Of a DNA stretch of 64,000 nt, positions 26,845-46,294 are shown one piece after another. This DNA comes from Thermotogae bacterium (GTDB lineage Bacteria > Thermotogota > Thermotogae > Mesoaciditogales > Mesoaciditogaceae). The notes beneath the pieces were generated by a model. The model was not told the DNA's origin. It made no database searches and saw only the letters and a list, made by a program, of their open reading frames with translations. The stretch covers positions 1 to 64,000 of the forward strand of contig JALSLY010000076.1 in assembly GCA_026988035.1 (NCBI GenBank), given 5' to 3'. Each line of letters begins with the position of its first letter. The stretch's first letter is position 1. A program made the translations under genes and the position numbers.

Positions 26845-27140
26845 AACATCTTCCACCGCTACACGGTCCCCCTTCTCAGCTATCGCTTCGGTCATGGAAG
26901 TGGGAAAGACATTGCACACCGTGCAATCCCACTCAGCTGCCGCGTGCGCCTACTACTCGGTTGCCACCTCAGACACAAAGAGGAAGTGATGATGCTCTCA
27001 ACTTCGTTTCGGTCAGAAAAGTGGGAAAGACATTGCACACTGTGCAATCCCGCTCCGGCAACTCCACTCACAGCACAATCCCACTTCTCAAGAAAGGATT
27101 AATCCCCTCTATTAAGAGGGGTGCCTGAAAGGCGGGGTGT
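26845..27140. repeat. mosaic palindromic intergenic repeat, copy 2
   Basis: Includes ACATCTTCCACCGCTACACGG, two copies of the AGTGGGAAAGACATTGCACAC module (near 26898 and 27019), and the CCCCTCTATTAAGAGGGG module ending GGCGGGGTGTGTGG. Confidence 0.75.
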
Positions 27141-35391: not shown

Positions 35392-35408
35392 CATAAACGC
35401 ACTTTTTA

Positions 35409-35463
35409 GGAACCATCAGTTCCTATGAGGAACAATTAGTTCTCTGCAGGAACTGGCAGTTCC
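35409..35463. promoter_or_regulatory. three palindromic operators, probable enhancer (UAS) array
   Basis: GGAAC-N5-GTTCC at 35409-35423, 35429-35443 (last base T) and 35449-35463, an exact 20-bp period, so all three face the same side of the helix. They lie 93-147 bp upstream of the predicted sigma-54 start, the usual distance for enhancer-binding proteins. The candidate binder is encoded at 42383-43747. Confidence 0.8.
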
Positions 35464-35528
35464 GGCTATCAAGATCAATATTTCCTCATTTTATACACTT
35501 TTCAGAGATCTAAAAAATTTACAAAGTG

Positions 35529-35545
35529 TTGGCACGAATTATGCT
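35529..35545 (+). promoter_or_regulatory. sigma-54 (-24/-12) promoter of the secretin operon
   Basis: TTGGCACGAATTATGCT has the complete TTGGCACG -24 box, with GG (35531-35532) and GC (35543-35544) separated by exactly 10 bp. Predicted start near 35556, only about 15 nt before the first ATG. Confidence 0.85.
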
Positions 35546-35570: not shown

Positions 35571-36035
35571 ATGCAGAAACCATTGGAGATGGAAAGAGAA
35601 AGTGAATTCACCGTTTTATGCGACAAAGAAGACAATAAAATATCCTTATCAGTCTTTGAAATTCAAAAAAGGCATTCCTGGGTAATCACCTATTCTTTTG
35701 AACACGGGGAAAACGAAAGAAAAGTGGTCTATTCATTACAAAAAGGAATAGAAATCATAGGAAGAGCAAGGGGGAATAGGGTGTTATTCACGGTAATTTC
35801 TCCAACGTGGTCAAACGGGACCAACTTCGCACCGGCAAACATGTCTGTTCGATTTTTAGAAAATGCGCGTATTGATAAAAGGCTGTTTGCCGCGGGTGCG
35901 GTAACGGTGGGAAAGCTTGATTTCAAAAATGCCACTCGTGTTGATAGTCTCGGAAAGATCATGGTGTCCATTCAACTGTCAAAAGACGCCAAGGCTGGAG
36001 TTTATTCCGGCATGATCACGATCACGTTGGATTGA
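35571..36035 (+). CDS. small beta-sandwich-like protein of the secretin operon
   Basis: 154 residues from ATG 35571; the GTG at 35526 lies inside the promoter and cannot be the start. No signal peptide is visible, which is odd beside its secreted neighbours. Strand-rich, ending AKAGVYSGMITITLD, very like the end of the protein at 41526 (TKAGIYTDNITITV), a pattern seen at the last strand of pilin or coat-type beta sandwiches. Possibly an N-terminally truncated subunit. Family not recognised. Confidence 0.6.
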   Translation: MQKPLEMERESEFTVLCDKEDNKISLSVFEIQKRHSWVITYSFEHGENERKVVYSLQKGIEIIGRARGNRVLFTVISPTWSNGTNFAPANMSVRFLENARIDKRLFAAGAVTVGKLDFKNATRVDSLGKIMVSIQLSKDAKAGVYSGMITITLD

Positions 36036-36116
36036 AAAAAGGTGGTGGTGATGTAGGGACCAATTTGTGTTGATCTGTGATAGGCTTCAAAGATTCATGC
36101 AAGTGTTTTTCAAAAA

Positions 36117-36132
36117 TTCTCGGGGGAAACCC
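36117..36132 (+). promoter_or_regulatory. short GAAA-tetraloop hairpin before the 36161 gene
   Basis: GGGG-GAAA-CCCC just upstream of AAGGGAGG. In mRNA it would form a stable tetraloop; a processing or stability element is possible. Confidence 0.35.
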
Positions 36133-36160
36133 CATATAAATCTCAAGGGAGGTATTTCGT

Positions 36161-36799
36161 ATGAAGAAAGTTCTTATTCTCACGGTAATTGCGATTTTGG
36201 CGTTAGGTGTAATGGCGTTGGCAACCACTTCACAGGTCCACATGGGAGGTAACAACACGGTGGCTTTTAGCGGATCGATAAACATTCATGTGGATCAATG
36301 GACTACTTTAGCATCAAGCCCTGTAGAAGTGGAATTGGAGGATTATAATACCGAAATTGGATATCCATGGCGAACAGTCGGATATTTTCACGTAGAATCA
36401 AACGGTCGTTGGCGAATAATTGTAACATCTAAGAAACATTTCAAAATAGGATCGTCCGTAGAGCTTACCATTAGTGGTGCTAGGATAATTGAGTATTATG
36501 GTCATAGTTTTACTGGAACTTCTTACTATGATTTCATAGGTTCTGGTGCAACGTCTACAGCAGCCCAAGGCACCATCACCGCACCGTCCTCGAGTGTATA
36601 TGAAGCATGGCAATTTAAACCACCAGCTGGTTATTATAATCATCCTTACTTTATTTTCACTTCTGGAAGTGGCTATGCACCGGGATTTAAACTCGAGTTG
36701 CAATTCAACCAAGACAAGTGGATGCCCACAGGAGACTTCAGTTTGCCAGTGCAAGTATGGATCATTCCACAAGCTCATTTTTCCGACTTCGGATTCTAA
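36161..36799 (+). CDS. secreted beta-rich protein, candidate major subunit
   Basis: 212 residues with a signal peptide (VLILTVIAILALGVMALA). The mature part is rich in Gly, Ser, Thr, Tyr and aromatic residues in alternating patterns and has no cysteine, resembling surface subunits. Strong ribosome site (AAGGGAGG). A terminator-like hairpin directly follows, which would raise its expression relative to the later genes, as in pilus operons. Family not recognised. Confidence 0.65.
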   Translation: MKKVLILTVIAILALGVMALATTSQVHMGGNNTVAFSGSINIHVDQWTTLASSPVEVELEDYNTEIGYPWRTVGYFHVESNGRWRIIVTSKKHFKIGSSVELTISGARIIEYYGHSFTGTSYYDFIGSGATSTAAQGTITAPSSSVYEAWQFKPPAGYYNHPYFIFTSGSGYAPGFKLELQFNQDKWMPTGDFSLPVQVWIIPQAHFSDFGF

Positions 36800-36814
36800 C
36801 TTTTCGTAAGATGA

Positions 36815-36859
36815 ATTCACCCGCGGGATTTAATTCCAAGTAGACCGTGGGTGAATTTT
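36815..36859 (+). terminator. attenuator-like hairpin after the candidate major subunit
   Basis: ATTCACCCGCGG (36815-36826) and CCGTGGGTGAAT (36845-36856) pair with one mismatch and are followed by TTTC. The short T-run suggests partial termination. Confidence 0.55.
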
Positions 36860-36886
36860 CACTTGAAGATTTAAGGAGGAAGTAAT

Positions 36887-38461
36887 TTGAAAAAAATCAT
36901 TGGTGTGTTGTTAGTTGTAGGTGTATTTTTCTATGTAAGTGGATTTTCAGCTTTAAGAGTTTATCCAATGATCAAAAAGATTTCCGCTGAAAAGGGACAA
37001 AAAATCACCTTTAATTTTAGGCTTTCCAACACTTCAAACACTTCAATGAACGTTGAAGTGTTGTTGAAGGATTTCTTTATAGATTCAAATGGAAATTATT
37101 TCATAAATGTGGCATTTCCATCTTATTCACATTCTTGCCGCAAATGGATAAGTGTTCCGAGTACGGCGATTACCCTTTCGCCATCTCAAGTGATGAATTT
37201 TCCAATAACGCTTCGTGTACCCCCAAACGCGGCGGGTAATTATTACGCTGGAATTGCTTTTTCGTATTCTCCATCAGAATCAAATGTGAATGGCGGAAAG
37301 CTCAGTTTTAAACTCGCGATGAATCTTTTCGCAATTGTAGCCATCGATGTGGTGAATTCCCCGCATGTTTATGAAGCAAAATTCGAAAGCATTAAACTTT
37401 ACAACACGAAAATCGACGATCTTCCAAAAAATTTTCCAGATTCGCTAAAGAAGTATCCTTACGTTTTTAGACTGGATTACACAAACCAGGGCAATGTTGT
37501 CGTGGGCTTAAAAGGTCAATTCAGAGTTGTATCCGATACCTTGCGTAGAATTGTAGGAAACGTTGATCTTAATAGAGAAGAAACGATCTGTTTTCCAGGT
37601 ATCACAAGAACCATATGGATCCCGTTTGAAAGGCTCATGCCAAACGGTGAATATCGCGCGCTGCTTTCGGCCGATCTCGGAGAACAACACATGACGAGCC
37701 AAATATTCAAATTCAAAATAACCGATGCGAGTGTGAGTCAGTCGCCGATTTTAAAGGTGGATAATTCCGAAATCGATATTCCCTTAAGAAGAGCCAATAC
37801 GTACGTGGGAGGAGATTTCAAAATTGAGAGTTTGGACTACAGGAAGATAGACATTTCAGCGCATTTAAGCGGATTCATGCAAACTGAAGATGGAAGCATC
37901 GTGTCGGCTCCATTAGATAAAAAGATCTTTGGAAATTTAAAAATGTATCCGTCTAAATTCAGCGTTTACCCGTATTCACAAAGGGAAGCGAGGATCGCCG
38001 GGCGAGCGCCTTCAACCATGCCGACAGAGGGTCAGTACTACGCACTGCTCACGCTGGTGGCGAAGGTGGCCAAAGGCAAAGAGCCGAAAATTTTGAAACT
38101 GCCCATCGTAATAAACGTTGGAAAACTGACGAAATCTCTGAAAGTGGAAAATCTGACCGCTTCCAAAGTGGGAACAAGCGCTAACGTGTCATTTGACATC
38201 GTTAACAATGGAAATTCGTACGTCGATTATTCCGCGGAGGTTTTCGTCACAAACGAAGAGAAAAAATCCATGTTGTCTCATCCTGTTATGATAAAGGGAA
38301 AAATGATTTACGCCGGATTCACGCTTTCAGCGAGTGCGAATGTTCCAGTTGAATTGAAAAAAGGTTATACTGTTAGGGTAGTGGTCAAATATGCAACCGG
38401 TAAAGGGGCGAACGGTGCTCCTATTTATAAGACGGTATCTAAGGAATTGGTTGTTCATTGA
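36887..38461 (+). CDS. secreted PapD/DUF916-like protein, candidate chaperone or scaffold
   Basis: 524 residues with a signal peptide (GVLLVVGVFFYVSGFSA). The first 140 residues follow the PapD/DUF916 pattern: LRVYPMIKKISAEKGQKITF, then NTSNTSMNVEV, and RVPPNAAGNYYAGIAFS. Further Ig-like modules (about 165-290, 290-415, 420-524) follow. PapD-like folds bind unassembled subunits or tether surface proteins. TTG start with AAGGAGG. Role inferred from fold and context. Confidence 0.65.
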   Translation: MKKIIGVLLVVGVFFYVSGFSALRVYPMIKKISAEKGQKITFNFRLSNTSNTSMNVEVLLKDFFIDSNGNYFINVAFPSYSHSCRKWISVPSTAITLSPSQVMNFPITLRVPPNAAGNYYAGIAFSYSPSESNVNGGKLSFKLAMNLFAIVAIDVVNSPHVYEAKFESIKLYNTKIDDLPKNFPDSLKKYPYVFRLDYTNQGNVVVGLKGQFRVVSDTLRRIVGNVDLNREETICFPGITRTIWIPFERLMPNGEYRALLSADLGEQHMTSQIFKFKITDASVSQSPILKVDNSEIDIPLRRANTYVGGDFKIESLDYRKIDISAHLSGFMQTEDGSIVSAPLDKKIFGNLKMYPSKFSVYPYSQREARIAGRAPSTMPTEGQYYALLTLVAKVAKGKEPKILKLPIVINVGKLTKSLKVENLTASKVGTSANVSFDIVNNGNSYVDYSAEVFVTNEEKKSMLSHPVMIKGKMIYAGFTLSASANVPVELKKGYTVRVVVKYATGKGANGAPIYKTVSKELVVH

Positions 38462-38463
38462 CA

Positions 38464-38606
38464 ATACAACATAACACACCCCGCCCTTCGGGCACCCCTC
38501 TTGATAGAGGGGATTAATCCTTCCTAAAAAGTAAGGTGGCGGTGAAGCCGACGGAAGGTAGTCCTTCCTTGAGGAAGGGGGACCGCGGAGCGGTGGAAGG
38601 TGTTAA
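38464..38606. repeat. mosaic palindromic intergenic repeat, copy 4 (reversed)
   Basis: Reads AACACACCCCGCCC through CCCCTCTTGATAGAGGGG, GGTGAAGCCGACGGAAGG and CGCGGAGCGGTGG to AAGGTGTTA, i.e. the opposite orientation to copy 3. Lies inside the secretin operon. Confidence 0.8.
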
Positions 38607-38646
38607 AAGTACAAATTGACTAAAAAATCATAGGGGGAAACTAAGG

Positions 38647-39804
38647 ATGAAAAAGATCTTTCTTACCACAATTATATTAAGTGTTTTGACGCTTTTGTCA
38701 TTTTCTCAGAGCGTGAGTATTTCATTCTTTCAAGAGTCTCTCACTCAAGCTTTGAGCGATCTCGCAGCGCAGGAAAATATAACGATCATCACCGACTCGA
38801 CGGTGGGAGGGTTTATAACATTAAATCTTGAAAATGTGAGCATTTCTGATGCACTCGATCTGATGTTACTTCCTGGGGGGTATTCATGGAAGGAAATAAA
38901 GCCGGGCGTGTACTTTGTGGGAACGGCCGATCCTACGTCAAACAGTTTTCTTTATTTGGCAACTTCCACATCTTACCATCTCAAGTACGTTAATGCGACG
39001 ACTGTGATGGATTTTCTCCCAAAGATCATGCAAAAGTACATTTTCACATCGAGTAACTCTCCCACCACTTTGCTTATCGGTGCTCCTGAGAATGTCAAGG
39101 GAGCAATAATCGATCTTATAAAAAAGATCGATGTGCCAAAGAGAGAGATCATCGTTCAGATGAACGTCGTGGAGGCAGATGAATCTGTGGTGAAAAAATG
39201 GGGAATGGATCTTCAATATTCCAATCCATCTGGAACTTCTTCTTCAACGACGTTCAATTTTTTGGACAACGTGATAAATCTGGTTTACAAAGTTAACAAT
39301 CTCTCGATCCTTTCGGATATAAGGGCTGAGGAAGCGAGTGGGGCTGTGAAGATTCTTGCTAATCCAAAGATCAGGATAGAGAGCGGAAAGACCGGGAATG
39401 TAGATGTGTCAACGACAAGAAAATATCTTTATACAAATTCAGAAGGTAAAAAAGTTTACGCCGACGTAAAAGTTGGAGTGAATATAACTGTTATTCCCAC
39501 AATATCAGCCTCGGGGGACGTGACATTGAATTTATCCGAGAGCGTGTCAGGTGCAATAAAAACAGTGAACCCCCTTCCAGACACTGTTACCCACACGCTC
39601 TCTACGACATTTAACACCGAGGTTGGCCAAACAGTTGCAGTTGGAGGCATCAGCTTTGATACATATGAAAAATCCATCTCCAAAGTGCCAATTCTTGGCG
39701 ATATCCCGATAATAGGTTATCTTTTTACCCAGGATGGAATGCGTAGCGTTAAGAAAGAGATTATGGTGATCATTACCTGCGAGAAAGCGGGCGAATGGCA
39801 ATGA
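38647..39804 (+). CDS. secretin, compact, orphan
   Basis: 385 residues, short for the family. Signal peptide, N0/STN-like domain (about 25-93, FFQESLTQALSDLA), N1-like domain (about 105-165) and the secretin domain (about 170-380) with the hallmark VPILGDIPIIGYLF. It should form an outer-membrane channel for protein export. No GspE, GspF, GspC or prepilin peptidase gene is near. Coupled to the next gene by a 10-bp overlap. Confidence 0.88.
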   Translation: MKKIFLTTIILSVLTLLSFSQSVSISFFQESLTQALSDLAAQENITIITDSTVGGFITLNLENVSISDALDLMLLPGGYSWKEIKPGVYFVGTADPTSNSFLYLATSTSYHLKYVNATTVMDFLPKIMQKYIFTSSNSPTTLLIGAPENVKGAIIDLIKKIDVPKREIIVQMNVVEADESVVKKWGMDLQYSNPSGTSSSTTFNFLDNVINLVYKVNNLSILSDIRAEEASGAVKILANPKIRIESGKTGNVDVSTTRKYLYTNSEGKKVYADVKVGVNITVIPTISASGDVTLNLSESVSGAIKTVNPLPDTVTHTLSTTFNTEVGQTVAVGGISFDTYEKSISKVPILGDIPIIGYLFTQDGMRSVKKEIMVIITCEKAGEWQ

Positions 39805-41258
39805 GGAAAGCTTTATTGTTCGTTTCCCTAATTTTTGTGGCGATTGTGGTTCTTGCCACAACTGCCACCTTTTCTTTTTATCAAGAAAGTTTGTCGCAGG
39901 CGTTCGTGGATGTATCTGAAAGTTTCAACGTGCCCATAGTTGTGGACGAAACTGTTAGTGGACAAGTTACTATGGCTCTTAATAATGTAACGTTCAAGGG
40001 AGCAATAGATGATTTGTGTGCTAAATTCGATTTGTTCTATTTTGAGAAAAATGGAGTGTACTTTGTTGGGTCATCGTCTTCATCTGTCATGATGAAAGTG
40101 TACGGTTACTCAACACACGTCATACCGTTGAAATACCTAAGTGCGAATGATGCAATAAAGTTTCTTGCTCCTTACACATCGTACATAACTTACGCAAGTG
40201 GAAGCGGCATTTTGCTTTTTAGAGGGCCAAAAGAGATCTATTCAAAAGTTGCAAAGATTATTAAAAATGTTGATAAAGTGCCAAATACATCTTACATCGT
40301 TTACGCACTTTATAGTGTGCCAAGTGATTTCTACACGAGTGGAAATAATTCGGGATGGCTTAGCAAACTTGTGAATACAGGAAATTTTTCGAGCGTTGAT
40401 GCCAAACAATTTACAAGTGTGAAAAAATCTTTCATCGCTGAAGAGAATGGCTTTGCTTTTGCTCAATCCGGAAAGACGGTGAGTTTTGACATCTCGGATA
40501 TGAAATCAAAATTGGACGCAACAGTTATGTCTCAAAGCGCTTCTGGAGCAAAGATCAATTTGTCACTGTCAAGCTCAGGCCTTGTAAATGTTGCTGCGAA
40601 TTCTGTTTTGACAATTAGAAAGAATGATGTTGTCCTTGCTGCTTTGAGAAACGGTGAACAGGATTTTGTTATTGAGGTTTCTGTGGTTAAAACATCACCG
40701 AGCATTTCTAAACTTGCCAAAATGTGGCCAATCGAAAGAAAAGTGAGAAGCTTTTATTTAAAGGCGAACATTTCAACCAGTGAGATTTCTTTTGAGGTTT
40801 TGGCAAGATATTTGAACATCGCAGCAGATGTGGAAAAAACAGCATCAAACGCCAGCATTTATGCTGGAATTGGTGAAAAAATCGCTCAGAATCTTTGGGG
40901 ATATTTACTTGCTGGTTCGAATGTTCCAATCAAGTCTTTAGATTCTTACAAAGTGAAATTTGTACTTGTACAGACGGAAAATTCAAATGGTTTCATTTTA
41001 TCATCTGGTTCTTTGAGTTTAGCGGCTCCTCTCAAGGCTTTTAATGAATTCAAATTAAATTATTCTGGAACTGTAGAAATGAGATTTGATACTTTGCTTT
41101 TGGGCGTGAATATGCAGTATTCTTACGATAACACAAACGGTGAACAATCTTTTGATTCATTTCTAACGGGAGGATATTTATTGAATGGGAATGTGGTACG
41201 TGTCATGTATGGACCTCTATCTAAAGAGTTCAGATTTGAATTGGAGTGGGGAATGTGA
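39795..41258 (+). CDS. secretin-like paralogue with N0/N1 domains but no secretin core
   Basis: 487 residues with a signal peptide. Residues about 27-95 (FYQESLSQAFVDVSESF) align with the secretin's N0 domain, and about 105-170 with N1. The VPxLGxIP signature is absent; the remainder is a unique beta-rich region ending FELEWGM. It may cap or extend the secretin ring, or form its own barrel. ATG 39795 or 39801 are both possible. Confidence 0.7.
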   Translation: MAMRKALLFVSLIFVAIVVLATTATFSFYQESLSQAFVDVSESFNVPIVVDETVSGQVTMALNNVTFKGAIDDLCAKFDLFYFEKNGVYFVGSSSSSVMMKVYGYSTHVIPLKYLSANDAIKFLAPYTSYITYASGSGILLFRGPKEIYSKVAKIIKNVDKVPNTSYIVYALYSVPSDFYTSGNNSGWLSKLVNTGNFSSVDAKQFTSVKKSFIAEENGFAFAQSGKTVSFDISDMKSKLDATVMSQSASGAKINLSLSSSGLVNVAANSVLTIRKNDVVLAALRNGEQDFVIEVSVVKTSPSISKLAKMWPIERKVRSFYLKANISTSEISFEVLARYLNIAADVEKTASNASIYAGIGEKIAQNLWGYLLAGSNVPIKSLDSYKVKFVLVQTENSNGFILSSGSLSLAAPLKAFNEFKLNYSGTVEMRFDTLLLGVNMQYSYDNTNGEQSFDSFLTGGYLLNGNVVRVMYGPLSKEFRFELEWGM

Positions 41259-41289
41259 GACCACTCGACTCTTTGAGTTACCTTTTAGA

Positions 41290-41515
41290 AGAGAACATAC
41301 CTCGCCACTTCGTGGTCCCCTCCTCTAAAGAGGAGATTACGCCCACTTTGATAGAGGGGACTAATCCCGCCTATTAAGGAGCAGGATTGCGCGGTGCGCA
41401 ATGTTTTCCTGCTTCTACGACCGAGGCGGTAGCCGCGAGGGGGACCGCGGAGCGGTGGAAGGTAGTCCTTCCTTGAGGAAGGTGGCGGCGAAGCCGACGA
41501 AAGGTGTTATAAAGG
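41290..41515. repeat. mosaic palindromic intergenic repeat, copy 5 (rearranged)
   Basis: A scrambled set of modules: TCGCCACTTCGTGG, AAGAGGAGATTACGCCC, ATTGCGCGGTGCGCAAT, GACCGAGGCGGTAGCCGCGAGG and CCGCGGAGCGGTGG. Lies inside the operon before the 41526 gene. Confidence 0.75.
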
Positions 41516-41525
41516 AGTCAAAACC

Positions 41526-42320
41526 ATGAAGAAATTTGTTATCCTTGGTATTATTTTGACGATTACCGCATTTTCCGTGTTTGCTAACGGATGGGTGAAT
41601 GCGAGAGAAGAGATAGCAAAAAGCGTTGCTGAAAATTCACCGAAAAGCTTTACTGTTGCCGATGAGATGGCAACACCCATGATAAGCTCTAATTTTGGAA
41701 AGGTATCACGTGTTGGAAGTTCAGCAAAGACCAAATGCAATTCTGATGACACGTATGCGGCGACAATTGAGTTTTGGAGTGCGAACGCCGTGCGGGAAAT
41801 TTTGGAAGGGAAAAAGAATCACGAACGCCTTTTCAAAGGTCTTATCTATTACACCGGTTCTACAGACACATCTTTTGTGAGGCCAAAAAAGATGGATCTT
41901 GGAACGTACACGATCACGGATTATGGCACGTACGACATGCAACTTGCGTTTTTGACGGTTGAAACCAACGCGACGTTAACGATCACTGTGGATGATAAAG
42001 GAAGGCTTGTAGATAAAAATGGTGATACCATGAAGTCAGAGCATGGATTCTATTTTCTAAACGATGCTCTTAAAGCTGTGTTTTTAAATCTAAAAAACGG
42101 GGTTATCACTGGCTCAAATCTCCAAAAAAAGGCACTTTTTGCAGAACCGAAGAGTTTTTCTTCTCCAACTGCTTCGTGTGAAATTGAGCCTAACACTACA
42201 CATAGCGTTCCATTTACGATACTAAGTTGGTGGCTGCGTGCTATTGTGAAGAGGGATACCAAAGCGGGTATTTATACGGATAATATAACCATAACTGTGT
42301 TAGCGAAGCCAGACTTTTGA
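41526..42320 (+). CDS. secreted beta-rich protein of the secretin operon
   Basis: 264 residues with a signal peptide (ILGIILTITAFSVFA). Two cysteines, and a C-terminal TKAGIYTDNITITV segment similar to the protein at 35571. Probably another surface component. AAAGGAG precedes the ATG; a terminator follows 35 bp after the stop. Family not recognised. Confidence 0.65.
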   Translation: MKKFVILGIILTITAFSVFANGWVNAREEIAKSVAENSPKSFTVADEMATPMISSNFGKVSRVGSSAKTKCNSDDTYAATIEFWSANAVREILEGKKNHERLFKGLIYYTGSTDTSFVRPKKMDLGTYTITDYGTYDMQLAFLTVETNATLTITVDDKGRLVDKNGDTMKSEHGFYFLNDALKAVFLNLKNGVITGSNLQKKALFAEPKSFSSPTASCEIEPNTTHSVPFTILSWWLRAIVKRDTKAGIYTDNITITVLAKPDF

Positions 42321-42354
42321 ATTGTTTTGTAGATTGTTTCTTCTTGGCGGTAGG

Positions 42355-42378
42355 AAGGGGCTGAAAGGCCCCTTTTTT
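42355..42378 (+). terminator. rho-independent terminator of the secretin operon
   Basis: AAGGGGC and GCCCCTT stem with a 6-base loop followed by TTTT, between two convergent units. Confidence 0.85.
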
Positions 42379-42382
42379 ATTC

Positions 42383-43747
42383 CTATTTTTTCTTTTCTTT
42401 TTCTCCCTTTCTTTCTTTCATCCTTCTGTCTATAGCGTATTTAGTGATCAATTTGTTGAGATACCGATGTGTGATTCCCAACTCTTTTGAAGCTTGCTGC
42501 TTGCTCCACTTAAAAATCCTAAGCACTTTTTCGACGTATTGTTTTTCGAGTTCTTCAATGACGTGACTTTTAAAGATGGAAAGTTTTGGCAAACTGTTGC
42601 TTTGAACTATGGAATCTACAAGAGATGAAATGTGCTCCAAAATGGGTCCTTCTATTTCATTGCTAACGTTATCAATATTAACAGTGAAAAATTTGGACTC
42701 CGAAAGCAAAAGCTCTATGCTTCCTGTAACTATGTATCTTTCAAGAATGTTTTCCAATTCTCTGACATTTCCAGGATAATTGTATTCGAGAAGCATTTCA
42801 CGTTCCCTGTTAGTGAGATCTTCAAAACTAACTTTCAATCTTTTTGATTCAAAGAAGTGATTGACGAGAAGCGGTATATCATTTTTTCTTTGGCGAAGTG
42901 GTGGAATTTCCAGGACATTCTCAGATAACCTGAAAAAAAGATCTCTTCTTATTCTGTTGGGTTCTCTGTTGGTTGCAGATATGAACTTCACATCTACTTT
43001 TCTTGGAGTAGGATCTCCTATAACATTGTAGGCACCTTTTTCAACAATATATAAAAGTTTTCCCTGAACACGTGGTGAAAGCTCTGCAATTTCATCTAAA
43101 AACATGTGCCCATGGTTTGCGTTTTCTATCATGCCCCGCTTTTTCGAATCTGCACTTGTGAATGCACCTCGAGCATGCCCAAAAAGCTCACTCTCTATAA
43201 GTGAATCTGGCATTGTGGCGCAGTTCAAACTTACCATTTTTCCTTCTTTTCGAGGAGAAATTTTATGGATGATCTCAGCGAGAAGCGTTTTTCCTGTGCC
43301 AGTTTCCCCGAGGATCAATATATTACCATCGTGGAAAGAATGATATAGGATATTTCGTCTTAACTTTCTTGCTTCAGTAGTTTTTCCTATGAATTTGCTC
43401 AAATTTTCTTTGATATTTTGTGCTAATCCTAAAATAGGAGTTTCCGCATCACCAGTAGAAGTGTACAATATTTTTGTATTTAAGCTGACAAGACCTTTAT
43501 ACGTGTGATCTGAGATGATAACAAAATGAATTCCGGTAAACCTGTCAAGATTTTCCATCAATTCTTTTGTGCTTTGGATACCAATTGTACTTGATTTAGT
43601 GGCATTTAAGAATACAATGCCCCTTTTGAATTTTTTTAATGTGGCATCATCTATCTCTGAGGGATGATTCAGGAGAAAAATTTCTTGATCGTACAGCAAG
43701 TCTTTAACATCCTTTATGGAACTGAAACCCAAAAAGTATAGTCTCAC
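42383..43747 (-). CDS. sigma-54 enhancer-binding protein with a pseudo-receiver
   Basis: 454 residues. Residues 1-110 look like a receiver fold, but the phospho-Asp position reads IVFLNAT (Asn48) and the acidic pair is missing. The AAA+ domain has Walker A GETGTGKT (147-154), the sigma-54-contacting loop GAFTSA (194-199; normally GAFTGA), LDEI (217-220) and LRQRKNDI. A Fis-type HTH (QASKELGITHRYLNKLI) is near the C-terminus. GTG start with AGGGAG upstream. Convergent with the secretin operon and its likely activator. Confidence 0.93.
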   Translation of the reverse strand: MRLYFLGFSSIKDVKDLLYDQEIFLLNHPSEIDDATLKKFKRGIVFLNATKSSTIGIQSTKELMENLDRFTGIHFVIISDHTYKGLVSLNTKILYTSTGDAETPILGLAQNIKENLSKFIGKTTEARKLRRNILYHSFHDGNILILGETGTGKTLLAEIIHKISPRKEGKMVSLNCATMPDSLIESELFGHARGAFTSADSKKRGMIENANHGHMFLDEIAELSPRVQGKLLYIVEKGAYNVIGDPTPRKVDVKFISATNREPNRIRRDLFFRLSENVLEIPPLRQRKNDIPLLVNHFFESKRLKVSFEDLTNREREMLLEYNYPGNVRELENILERYIVTGSIELLLSESKFFTVNIDNVSNEIEGPILEHISSLVDSIVQSNSLPKLSIFKSHVIEELEKQYVEKVLRIFKWSKQQASKELGITHRYLNKLITKYAIDRRMKERKGEKEKKK

Positions 43748-43828: not shown

Positions 43829-43973
43829 ACCTTCCGTCGGCTTCGCCATCACCTCGCGGCTACCGCCTCGGTCATGGAAATGGAAAAGACATTGCACACC
43901 GTGCAATCCCATTCCTCAAGGAAGGACTAAGTCCCCTCTATTAAGAGGGGTGGCCGAAGGCCGGGGTGTGTTT
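43825..43973. repeat. mosaic palindromic intergenic repeat, copy 6
   Basis: Runs from AACACCTTCCGTCGG to GGCCGGGGTGTGTTT and contains the CATTGCACACCGTGCAATCCC and CTCTATTAAGAGGGG modules. It lies on one side of the DUF559 gene. Confidence 0.8.
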
Positions 43974-44411: not shown

Positions 44412-44612
44412 TAACACCTTCCACCGCTGCGCGGTCCCCCTTCCTTTTTAGGAAGGACTACCCCCATCCACCATTTCCGATGGTTTCTCTTCTCGGCTAC
44501 CGCCTTGGTCGTAGAAGCAGGAAAACATTGCGCACAGCACAATCCCACTCCTTTTCAGGAGGGATTAAGTCCCCTCTATTAAGAGGGGTGGCCGAAGGCC
44601 GGGGTGTGTTAC
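44412..44612. repeat. mosaic palindromic intergenic repeat, copy 7
   Basis: From AACACCTTCCACCGC to GGCCGGGGTGTGTTA. It includes the TCTCGGCTACCGCC and ACATTGCGCACAGCACAATCCC modules. Its last bases supply the TAA stop of the protein that follows on the minus strand. Confidence 0.8.
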
Positions 44613-46294
44613 TCTCCAACTTTTAGACTGATTTTTCCTCCAATTTGACCATCTACCATGGCAACTGTGAATCCTCCGCTCACATTTAGACCCCATAACT
44701 TTCCGGTTACCGATGTGTTAAAAGCCACTCCTTTTTCGTCGAATTTTGTTTCCAGTGAGTATTTTGTTTCTCCAAAATCCTTTGCAAGGGTGAGATTCAC
44801 AAACGGGGAATTTCCAATTGAAAGGGAAATCTTTCCAAAGTTTGTGTCAGCATTGGCGTTCAAAGTTGTGGTCAACGTGGAAGGTGATGTGTAAAGACTG
44901 AAGTCGACCGAGATGGGGATTTCACTCCACAACCATTGGTTTCCTATGTTCAGATTCATTTCTTCTTTTCCGGAATTATCTTTTTGCCAATTGAGGGTTG
45001 TTTGAAGTAAACCGAAAGATTTTGAGATTTTTAAGCCAATTTCTTTGGAATTAAAGCTCGCTTCAAGCGTTATTGGTGTGGAAACGCTCAATTTTGATTT
45101 CATCTCAAATTTTTTTCCAAAATGCTGATCGAAACTCAAAGAAATGTCGCCACTTGAAATTTTTTCAGTGCTTTCTACTTCTGAACTTCCTGCACTTAGG
45201 CCAAAACGAAATGTATTTGATGAGAACTTTAAAGCGATATTTGGATTTTTTCCAATGTAAAATGTTGCCTTTGTTTTTGAGGCATCAACAGATACTTGTA
45301 AAGCTTCTCCGTTTGACTCTATTTTTACATCTCCATACGAATTTTGCGCAGAAATAGAAAGGCTTCCGCCTTCGTTCATTGCTACTCCTAGCGGTTTTCT
45401 GAATCCTTTGGTGTTATATCCGGCATTTGCAACGAATTTCGTTCCATCGATCGAAAACCTGGATGTAGCTTCTATTTTGAAGGATGGGAAGTTGTCCATG
45501 TTAATGTAAGTTGAAAGAGAAAAGGAAGGCATGATGTTCAAAAGTTTGGCAAAGGCGAAAAATTGATTTGTAGGTGCCGGGAACTCCTGCGGAGTTCGTT
45601 TTTCTGGCATTAAATCGAATATAGCGAAGATGGAGGTTTCGAGAATATAATCTTTAGTTTTTTCTTTATCTCTTAATGTGGTCACGTACGAAGAAGAAGG
45701 AGTTGTTACGCTCTGATACTCTACAGTTACGACATCTCCGCGAACGAGATTTGGTACGAATATTTCTCCTTTGTTGTAATTGATTGTACATTCACTCAGG
45801 GGAATTGGGATTCCATTTAGATAAATCTGAACGCTCTGATATGCTATCGGGCCAAGGATAATTGGCATGCTTGGATCTTCGATTTTAAAAATTGTACGTT
45901 TGATAGAGCCACGAAGTTGTCCAAAAGAGAAGATAGGAGAAGAGAATCCAACGATTGAAAATTCATTTGTGCCATAACTCACGGTTCTTACAGTTCCGAA
46001 GCTGAGATCCTCCGGCGTGTAATGAAGTACCAGATTGCTAATAGAATTTCCCCCAATATCACCAGAGAGATAAAAACCTTTTGCCACTTTTCCTTCAAGA
46101 TGCACAGAAAGATTTTGAGAGAACCATAAACCTTCTGGAGAATTTATCCACGCGAGGACTTTTTGAGGGCCAAAACCATACAAGAGTTCGATGGCATGAT
46201 TGATTTGAATATTTAGTCCGAAAACGATCGTAGAAAGTTCAAGTGCCCAAAACACTCCCATGATCGATCTTACGACCGTTTTTAGCCTCACCAA
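44609..46294 (-). CDS. long secreted beta-rich protein, probable outer-membrane component
   Basis: 561 residues from GTG 46294, which gives a proper signal peptide (basic VRLKTVVR then GVFWALELSTIVFG) and has AAGGTG upstream. The mature part alternates polar and hydrophobic residues in short Gly/Ser-bounded strands throughout, as in large barrels, with an Ig-like stretch near 140-200 (QSVQIYLNGIPI). Start lies inside fmt. No named family recognised. Confidence 0.65.
   Translation of the reverse strand: MVRLKTVVRSIMGVFWALELSTIVFGLNIQINHAIELLYGFGPQKVLAWINSPEGLWFSQNLSVHLEGKVAKGFYLSGDIGGNSISNLVLHYTPEDLSFGTVRTVSYGTNEFSIVGFSSPIFSFGQLRGSIKRTIFKIEDPSMPIILGPIAYQSVQIYLNGIPIPLSECTINYNKGEIFVPNLVRGDVVTVEYQSVTTPSSSYVTTLRDKEKTKDYILETSIFAIFDLMPEKRTPQEFPAPTNQFFAFAKLLNIMPSFSLSTYINMDNFPSFKIEATSRFSIDGTKFVANAGYNTKGFRKPLGVAMNEGGSLSISAQNSYGDVKIESNGEALQVSVDASKTKATFYIGKNPNIALKFSSNTFRFGLSAGSSEVESTEKISSGDISLSFDQHFGKKFEMKSKLSVSTPITLEASFNSKEIGLKISKSFGLLQTTLNWQKDNSGKEEMNLNIGNQWLWSEIPISVDFSLYTSPSTLTTTLNANADTNFGKISLSIGNSPFVNLTLAKDFGETKYSLETKFDEKGVAFNTSVTGKLWGLNVSGGFTVAMVDGQIGGKISLKVGE

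Follow-up and report, generated by a model that had tools for sequence, protein, structure and literature searches.

The 64-kb window analysed here (64,000 nucleotides, part of contig C76) belongs to the 2.04 Mb genome of a member of the Thermotogota, in a family that includes Athalassotoga and Mesoaciditoga. Between positions 35571 and 42320 it carries six genes on the forward strand, for which an earlier note on this DNA had proposed a surface export or assembly system; the open reading frames (ORFs) and their common orientation were confirmed. Gene 1 (35571..36035) encodes a small beta-protein with a strand-like end (AGVYSGMITITLD) and no signal peptide. The product of gene 2 (36161..36799) is a small secreted beta-protein of family c3, a putative exported subunit, and that of gene 3 (36887..38461) a secreted protein with several immunoglobulin (Ig)-like domains, assigned to the WxL-interacting proteins (WxLIP, DUF916/DUF3324-like) and putatively a chaperone or scaffold for the subunits. 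Gene 4 (38647..39804) encodes a short secretin made up of N0, a single N1 and the secretin domain; it might form an outer-membrane channel. Gene 5 (39795..41258) encodes a secretin paralogue in which N0-N1 and a degenerate secretin domain precede a predicted barrel of 12 strands at the C-terminus. A second secreted subunit-type protein, ending in AGIYTDNITITV, is encoded by gene 6 (41526..42320). Sec-type signal sequences are present at the N-termini of the products of genes 2 to 6 and absent from that of gene 1, as had been stated for genes 1, 2 and 6. The six genes represent one copy of a WxLIP-secretin module in which the set and order of genes are conserved.

Upstream of gene 1, three tandem dyads of the form AGGAAC-N5-GTTC(C/T) are located on the forward strand (35408..35463), starting at 35408, 35428 and 35448 at a spacing of exactly 20 bp. 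Exact matches to AGGAACNNNNNGTTCY in the window were restricted to these dyads, with 0.05 expected by chance (the search gave four reports, with one dyad reported for each strand). Downstream of the dyads lies a sigma-54 promoter of the -24/-12 type (35530..35545, forward strand; TGGCACGAATTATGCT, one mismatch to TGGCACN5TTGCW). Because the GTG at 35526, given as the start of gene 1 by the ORF finder, overlaps this promoter, the ATG at 35571 is the better start, as originally annotated. Directly 3' of gene 6 lies a strong Rho-independent terminator (42352..42377, forward strand) with an 11-pair stem and a T-run. Since dyads and promoter are found upstream and the terminator after gene 6, the six genes are considered one real unit. 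The next gene (42383..43747, reverse strand) encodes a sigma-54-dependent activator (PF00158, E 6e-50, and a Fis-type helix-turn-helix), relatives of which sit divergently upstream of the corresponding operon in related genomes; an RpoN gene is present in the genome. Judged from these sequence features, the activator is probably the dedicated regulator of the operon and the dyads are probably its binding sites. A -24/-12 site with the full consensus or one position off it precedes the first subunit genes of related operons at seven other loci (L037, L038, L040, L042, L043, L044 and L045); the sigma-54-type promoter is conserved.

Gene 3 had been described as PapD/DUF916-like, of which only the second part was retained. 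PF06030 (WxLIP_PGBD, formerly DUF916) matches gene 3 at E 7.6e-4 and was matched in 21 of 40 homologues (best E 1.6e-8); PF11797 (WxLIP_HBD) was matched in three of the 40. In a comparison of the family profile with the whole PDB, one convincing chain was obtained, EfmWxLIP1 of Enterococcus faecium (9i1y, E 2.3e-10); the domain that follows contributed a further, weakly matching stretch. These profile matches show that gene 3 is a member of the WxLIP (DUF916/DUF3324) family. A PapD identity was dropped, as no PapD family model was matched among the 40 homologues in the Pfam search.

The assignment of gene 4 to the secretins was corroborated by matches to PF00263 (E 2.4e-29), STN (E 7.9e-7) and Secretin_N (E 0.0055). 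N0, N1 and secretin domain are shared with the secretins of the type II secretion system (T2SS; GspD), the type IV pilus (PilQ/HofQ), the type III secretion system (SctC) and phage protein pIV, and the full secretin domain is retained in nearly all copies of gene 4. Among the NCBIfam models, PilQ (E 2e-30) and GspD (E 4e-27) were matched, both far below the family cut-offs. In a maximum-likelihood tree, the short secretins of Thermotogota and the WxLIP-linked secretins from outside the phylum join with a support of 94/97. GspD forms a clade of its own (100/99) that excludes gene 4, and the pilus secretins of Thermotogota are placed elsewhere. The tree shows the WxLIP-linked secretins as a lineage separate from GspD and from the type IV pilus secretins of the phylum. 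On the basis of tree position and gene neighbourhood, the possibility that gene 4 is an ordinary secretin of a type IV pilus or T2SS was rejected.

Clustering of the ORFs in 40 Thermotogota neighbourhoods revealed a constant order: between one and five small beta-proteins come first, and WxLIP, short secretin and barrel/paralogue follow. Of 35 short secretins, 33 directly follow a WxLIP gene; in the two exceptions, both Kosmotogaceae-type loci, the WxLIP lies beyond a regulator. A barrel/paralogue-type gene follows immediately downstream in 34 of the 35 cases. The pairing found by this neighbourhood search, which had been suggested as a check, is no oddity of one genome. The arrangement is far beyond chance, and the WxLIP family was found in 68 of 103 Thermotogota genomes. 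The source genome itself harbors a second copy of the system on contig C43 (G000; L004:1940-10625). This copy has four c1-type subunits and a lipoprotein with a PQQ-propeller-like repeat (L004:3300-4691); both here and in related loci of type 2, the third subunit is preceded by an internal site that resembles -24/-12 (TGGCACGAAGTACGCT).

Outside the Thermotogota, 85,462 species genomes were scanned with a narrowed secretin alignment and the neighbourhoods were then read by profile; the taxonomy of metagenome-assembled genomes (MAGs) is to be read with caution. A WxLIP gene at most one gene away from a related secretin was found in Calditrichota (L093), KSB1 (L094, L143), UBA2214 (L091), Hebobacteria (L090) and Rhodobacteraceae (L108 and L110, the latter being the isolate Salinihabitans flavidus) as well as in MAGs labelled Bacillota (L100) and Piscirickettsiaceae (L116). 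The upstream DNA is present for eight of the non-Thermotogota loci, and all eight have the WxLIP no more than one gene from the secretin. Subunit-type relatives adjoin the WxLIP there as well (L144, E 2e-11; L143, E 7e-6). The occurrence is sporadic in the family of Salinihabitans, where 3 of 121 genomes matched the WxLIP profile at E < 1e-40. Planctomycete and Limnohabitans matches of the scan were put aside, as no WxLIP is found there, and so was a tblastn search of the Rhodobacteraceae secretin against plasmids, in which, among the matches listed, the annotated ones are T2SS secretins of ~20-24% identity. In the MAG labelled Piscirickettsiaceae (L116:1925-6481), the WxLIP-secretin pair is preceded by ExbB/MotA- and ExbD-like genes, a possible energy source. 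A further Rhodobacteraceae cluster (L142:3230-8819) encodes a WxLIP-like two-domain protein of 275 amino acids, small secreted beta-proteins and an 855-amino acid protein ending in a CarboxypepD_reg domain. No secretin was seen in this cluster, which is possibly a chaperone-usher relative.

Gene 5, described previously as a secretin-like paralogue, does contain secretin N domains (PF03958, E 7e-5; STN in 17 of 26 family members), to which a C-terminal barrel is now added by prediction. Its AlphaFold2 model, with a predicted local distance difference test score (pLDDT) of 85.5, starts with a signal helix and continues with N0, N1 and a degenerate beta domain of the secretin type, after which 12 strands follow (residues 320-486). 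With Foldseek, the front part resembled secretin N0-N1 structures and the back part barrels, among them the designed 12-stranded transmembrane barrel 9fdg (template modelling score by target 0.57). The protein is thus modelled as a secretin N0-N1 unit and a degenerate secretin domain, followed by a barrel of 12 strands. In its counterpart in other families (alignment A5), N0-N1 are lost and the degenerate secretin domain is kept. A5 aligns with the gene 4 family (hhalign, 92.8% over 189 columns), and its direct profile match to gene 5 reaches only 14%; it is taken as the gene 5 equivalent because of its gene position and the degenerate secretin domain, not because of a direct profile match.

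The exported subunits are multiple and variable. The gene 2 family is distantly related to the equivalent family of Thermotoga-type loci (A7; hhalign, 95.9%) and aligns more weakly with the Petrotoga-type family (82.7%). Relatives of the N-terminal part of gene 6 are found in L042 and L044 within proteins that cluster with gene 2; in L044:12044-12997 this part is fused to a gene 2-type domain. Relatives of gene 1 in L037, L038 and L040 likewise lack a signal peptide, and gene 1 shares its strand-like end motif with the exported subunits despite this lack. Genes 2 and 6 have a terminal-strand motif in common with dozens of relatives. This motif, G-x-Y with an alternating terminal strand, was present in 49 of 88 subunits, whereas among controls from these loci that bear a signal sequence it occurred in 4 of 86; as the motif was picked by eye, this enrichment is only descriptive.

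It is considered moderately probable that these genes form a dedicated WxLIP-secretin system that serves to export or assemble a fibre or surface layer made of beta-subunits. The operon would be turned on by the sigma-54 activator. The products of genes 2 and 6, putatively of the beta-sandwich type, would be exported by Sec and bound in the periplasm by the WxLIP-like gene 3 protein, which would act as a chaperone and probably lend them a strand, by analogy to the strand insertion predicted with AlphaFold2 for Gram-positive WxLIP and WxL (PMC10599100). The short secretin and the gene 5 protein would form a gate in the outer membrane; the subunits would be placed through this gate or onto it and might polymerise there to a fibre or surface layer, independently of a cytoplasmic motor. 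A more far-reaching proposal, a 'chaperone-secretin' pathway, is offered only tentatively. Here, WxLIP Ig proteins would hold strand-deficient subunits and a secretin, joined in Thermotogota by the barrel-fused paralogue, would replace the usher in a motor-free route that occurs in several phyla and shares its ancestry with the Gram-positive WxL system.

The likeness to chaperone-usher pili, especially of the archaic type, consists of an Ig-like periplasmic protein, small subunits with a G-x-Y terminal strand and an outer-membrane channel, and the usher case also runs without a motor. In contrast to these pili, no usher (PF00577) was found in any of 20 genomes including the source genome (the E. 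coli control was positive), no PapD model of Pfam was matched, and the channel would consist of a secretin and a 12-stranded paralogue. There is also a likeness to the Gram-positive WxL clusters. These contain one WxLIP and at least two small secreted beta-proteins, the WxLIP being proposed to hold the WxL proteins, and AlphaFold2 predicts that a DUF916 strand of WxLIP is inserted into WxL, a precedent for strand lending (PMC10599100). Gene 3, a WxLIP homologue beside at least two small secreted beta-proteins, might accordingly belong to a diderm version of such a cluster. In this case, a static complex of WxLIP and small proteins would link peptidoglycan, outer membrane and environment, secretin and barrel would only carry or anchor it, and nothing would be polymerised; the presence of one to five different subunits per locus, with no single dominant pilin, would fit this explanation. 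We regard it as rather unlikely. No WxL model was matched by genes 1, 2 or 6 or the gene 2 family in the Pfam search, and gene 3 is longer than WxLIP (524 versus 337-365 amino acids) and ends in ...GAPIYKTVSKELVVH, without the hydrophobic C-terminal transmembrane helix of WxLIP. Moreover, a conserved secretin would not be expected if its role were mere anchoring. The unit also differs from the WxL clusters in that the cell is a diderm and that secretin and barrel protein belong to it.

A dedicated WxLIP-secretin system has also to be set against an outlet that is accessory to the type IV pilus or a T2SS. Here, the short secretin would serve as an alternative port in the outer membrane, and the pilus ATPases would drive it in trans. 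The earlier note had pointed out that neither a GspE/GspF-type motor nor an usher is encoded in the window. This holds for both, with motor genes on other contigs (C56, C84 and C23, none on the operon contig) and no usher at all, but the absence of a motor proved a weak argument and was dropped as such. GspE- and GspF-type genes are present somewhere in all 20 genomes, and the PilB-type ATPase of Thermotogota is remote from the pilus secretin, too; with even the true pilus secretin lacking a linked ATPase, a missing nearby motor says little. The secretins of known systems do work with such motors. On the other hand, the matches to PF00437 and PF00482 in the genomes compared are on other contigs or far from the operon, GspE-type genes never adjoin it, and motors are not conserved beside it in relatives; such conservation had been named as a possible refutation. 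In most of the 20 genomes, a GspF/PilC-type gene has another, larger secretin within a few kb (on C23 here). This larger secretin is that of the type IV pilus; gene 4 differs from it and occupies another region of the tree. Likewise, neither a GspD-branch secretin nor co-encoded GspE/GspF, both traits of a T2SS, is found. The neighbour of gene 4 is a WxLIP instead of a motor, pseudopilins or an inner-membrane platform, and WxLIP and beta-subunits are not components of T2SS or pilus. No pseudopilin or GspC/PilP-type gene was noticed in the operon, although no specific search for pseudopilins was made. An accessory outlet therefore appears quite unlikely. With its separate secretin lineage and without an usher in the 20 genomes, the six-gene set does not represent any known locus for a T2SS, a type IV pilus or a chaperone-usher system, in agreement with the original proposal. 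As it lacks a tested defining feature of each of these systems and of WxL clusters, the WxLIP-secretin system is filed as new at the system level, with a putative function and with protein families that are each known. No description of the WxLIP-secretin pairing was found in the open-access literature, including searches on orphan secretins and Thermotoga surface appendages.

A third explanation takes the complex as an envelope scaffold or sensor, in which a secretin-type ring or barrel would anchor the loose toga and sense the state of the envelope without being an export channel. Thermotogota do have an unusual loose sheath (PMC3387000). Many copies adjoin regulators; this family has a sigma-54 activator as the neighbour, other families a BTAD-type activator. 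In a Petrotogaceae variant, genes for a response regulator and a histidine kinase come after WxLIP and paralogue. Nevertheless, this role seems very improbable, considering the secretin domain retained in nearly all copies, the WxLIP-secretin pairing in phyla without a toga, and the multiple variable exported subunits, which suggest a cargo. In the Petrotogaceae-type loci concerned (L062, L072, L074, L075 and L076), of which the first four contain a WxLIP, neither a secretin proper nor subunits adjoin the paralogue.

Several observations weigh against export or assembly by a dedicated WxLIP-secretin system. L062, L072, L074 and L075 combine WxLIP and paralogue with no secretin proper, and outside the Thermotogota the barrel paralogue was seen only in L100, so that it is not a universal part of the system. 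The secretin grouping from outside the phylum is just below the starred threshold of the tree. The subunits are without a Pfam or PDB relative; in searches of the PDB, the A7 profile retrieved nothing and the A8 profile one weak, unrelated match. Structure prediction, proposed in the earlier note, gave a good model for gene 5 but a poor one for gene 2 (pLDDT 57, 18 homologues), which is uninformative, and no subunit fold is therefore claimed. To our knowledge, every secretin system described so far works with a cytoplasmic motor. Pilus motor genes are present elsewhere in the operon-bearing genomes, and a motor acting in trans is possible.

Secretins are usually seen as components of a small number of well-described machines; here, a lineage with a constant, different partner is found, which extends from deep-branching thermophiles to Alphaproteobacteria and provides a homology link to a surface system of monoderms. 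If the system exports or assembles surface fibres, it would represent a new secretion route, a handle on the building of the poorly understood outer envelope of Thermotogota and a direct link between monoderms and diderms in surface assembly. The system is testable, because cultured carriers exist (Athalassotoga saccharophila and Salinihabitans flavidus).

Elsewhere in the window, a secreted protein of 561 amino acids without a Pfam match is encoded on the reverse strand (44609-46294), which is beta-rich and barrel-like in appearance. Furthermore, copies of a short hairpin, ATTGC(A/G)C..GCAAT, with GTCTTTTCCA or a close variant behind it, lie dispersed in intergenic positions of the window (26901-26916, 27022-27037, 41386-41402 and 43891-43907) and make up a small interspersed repeat.

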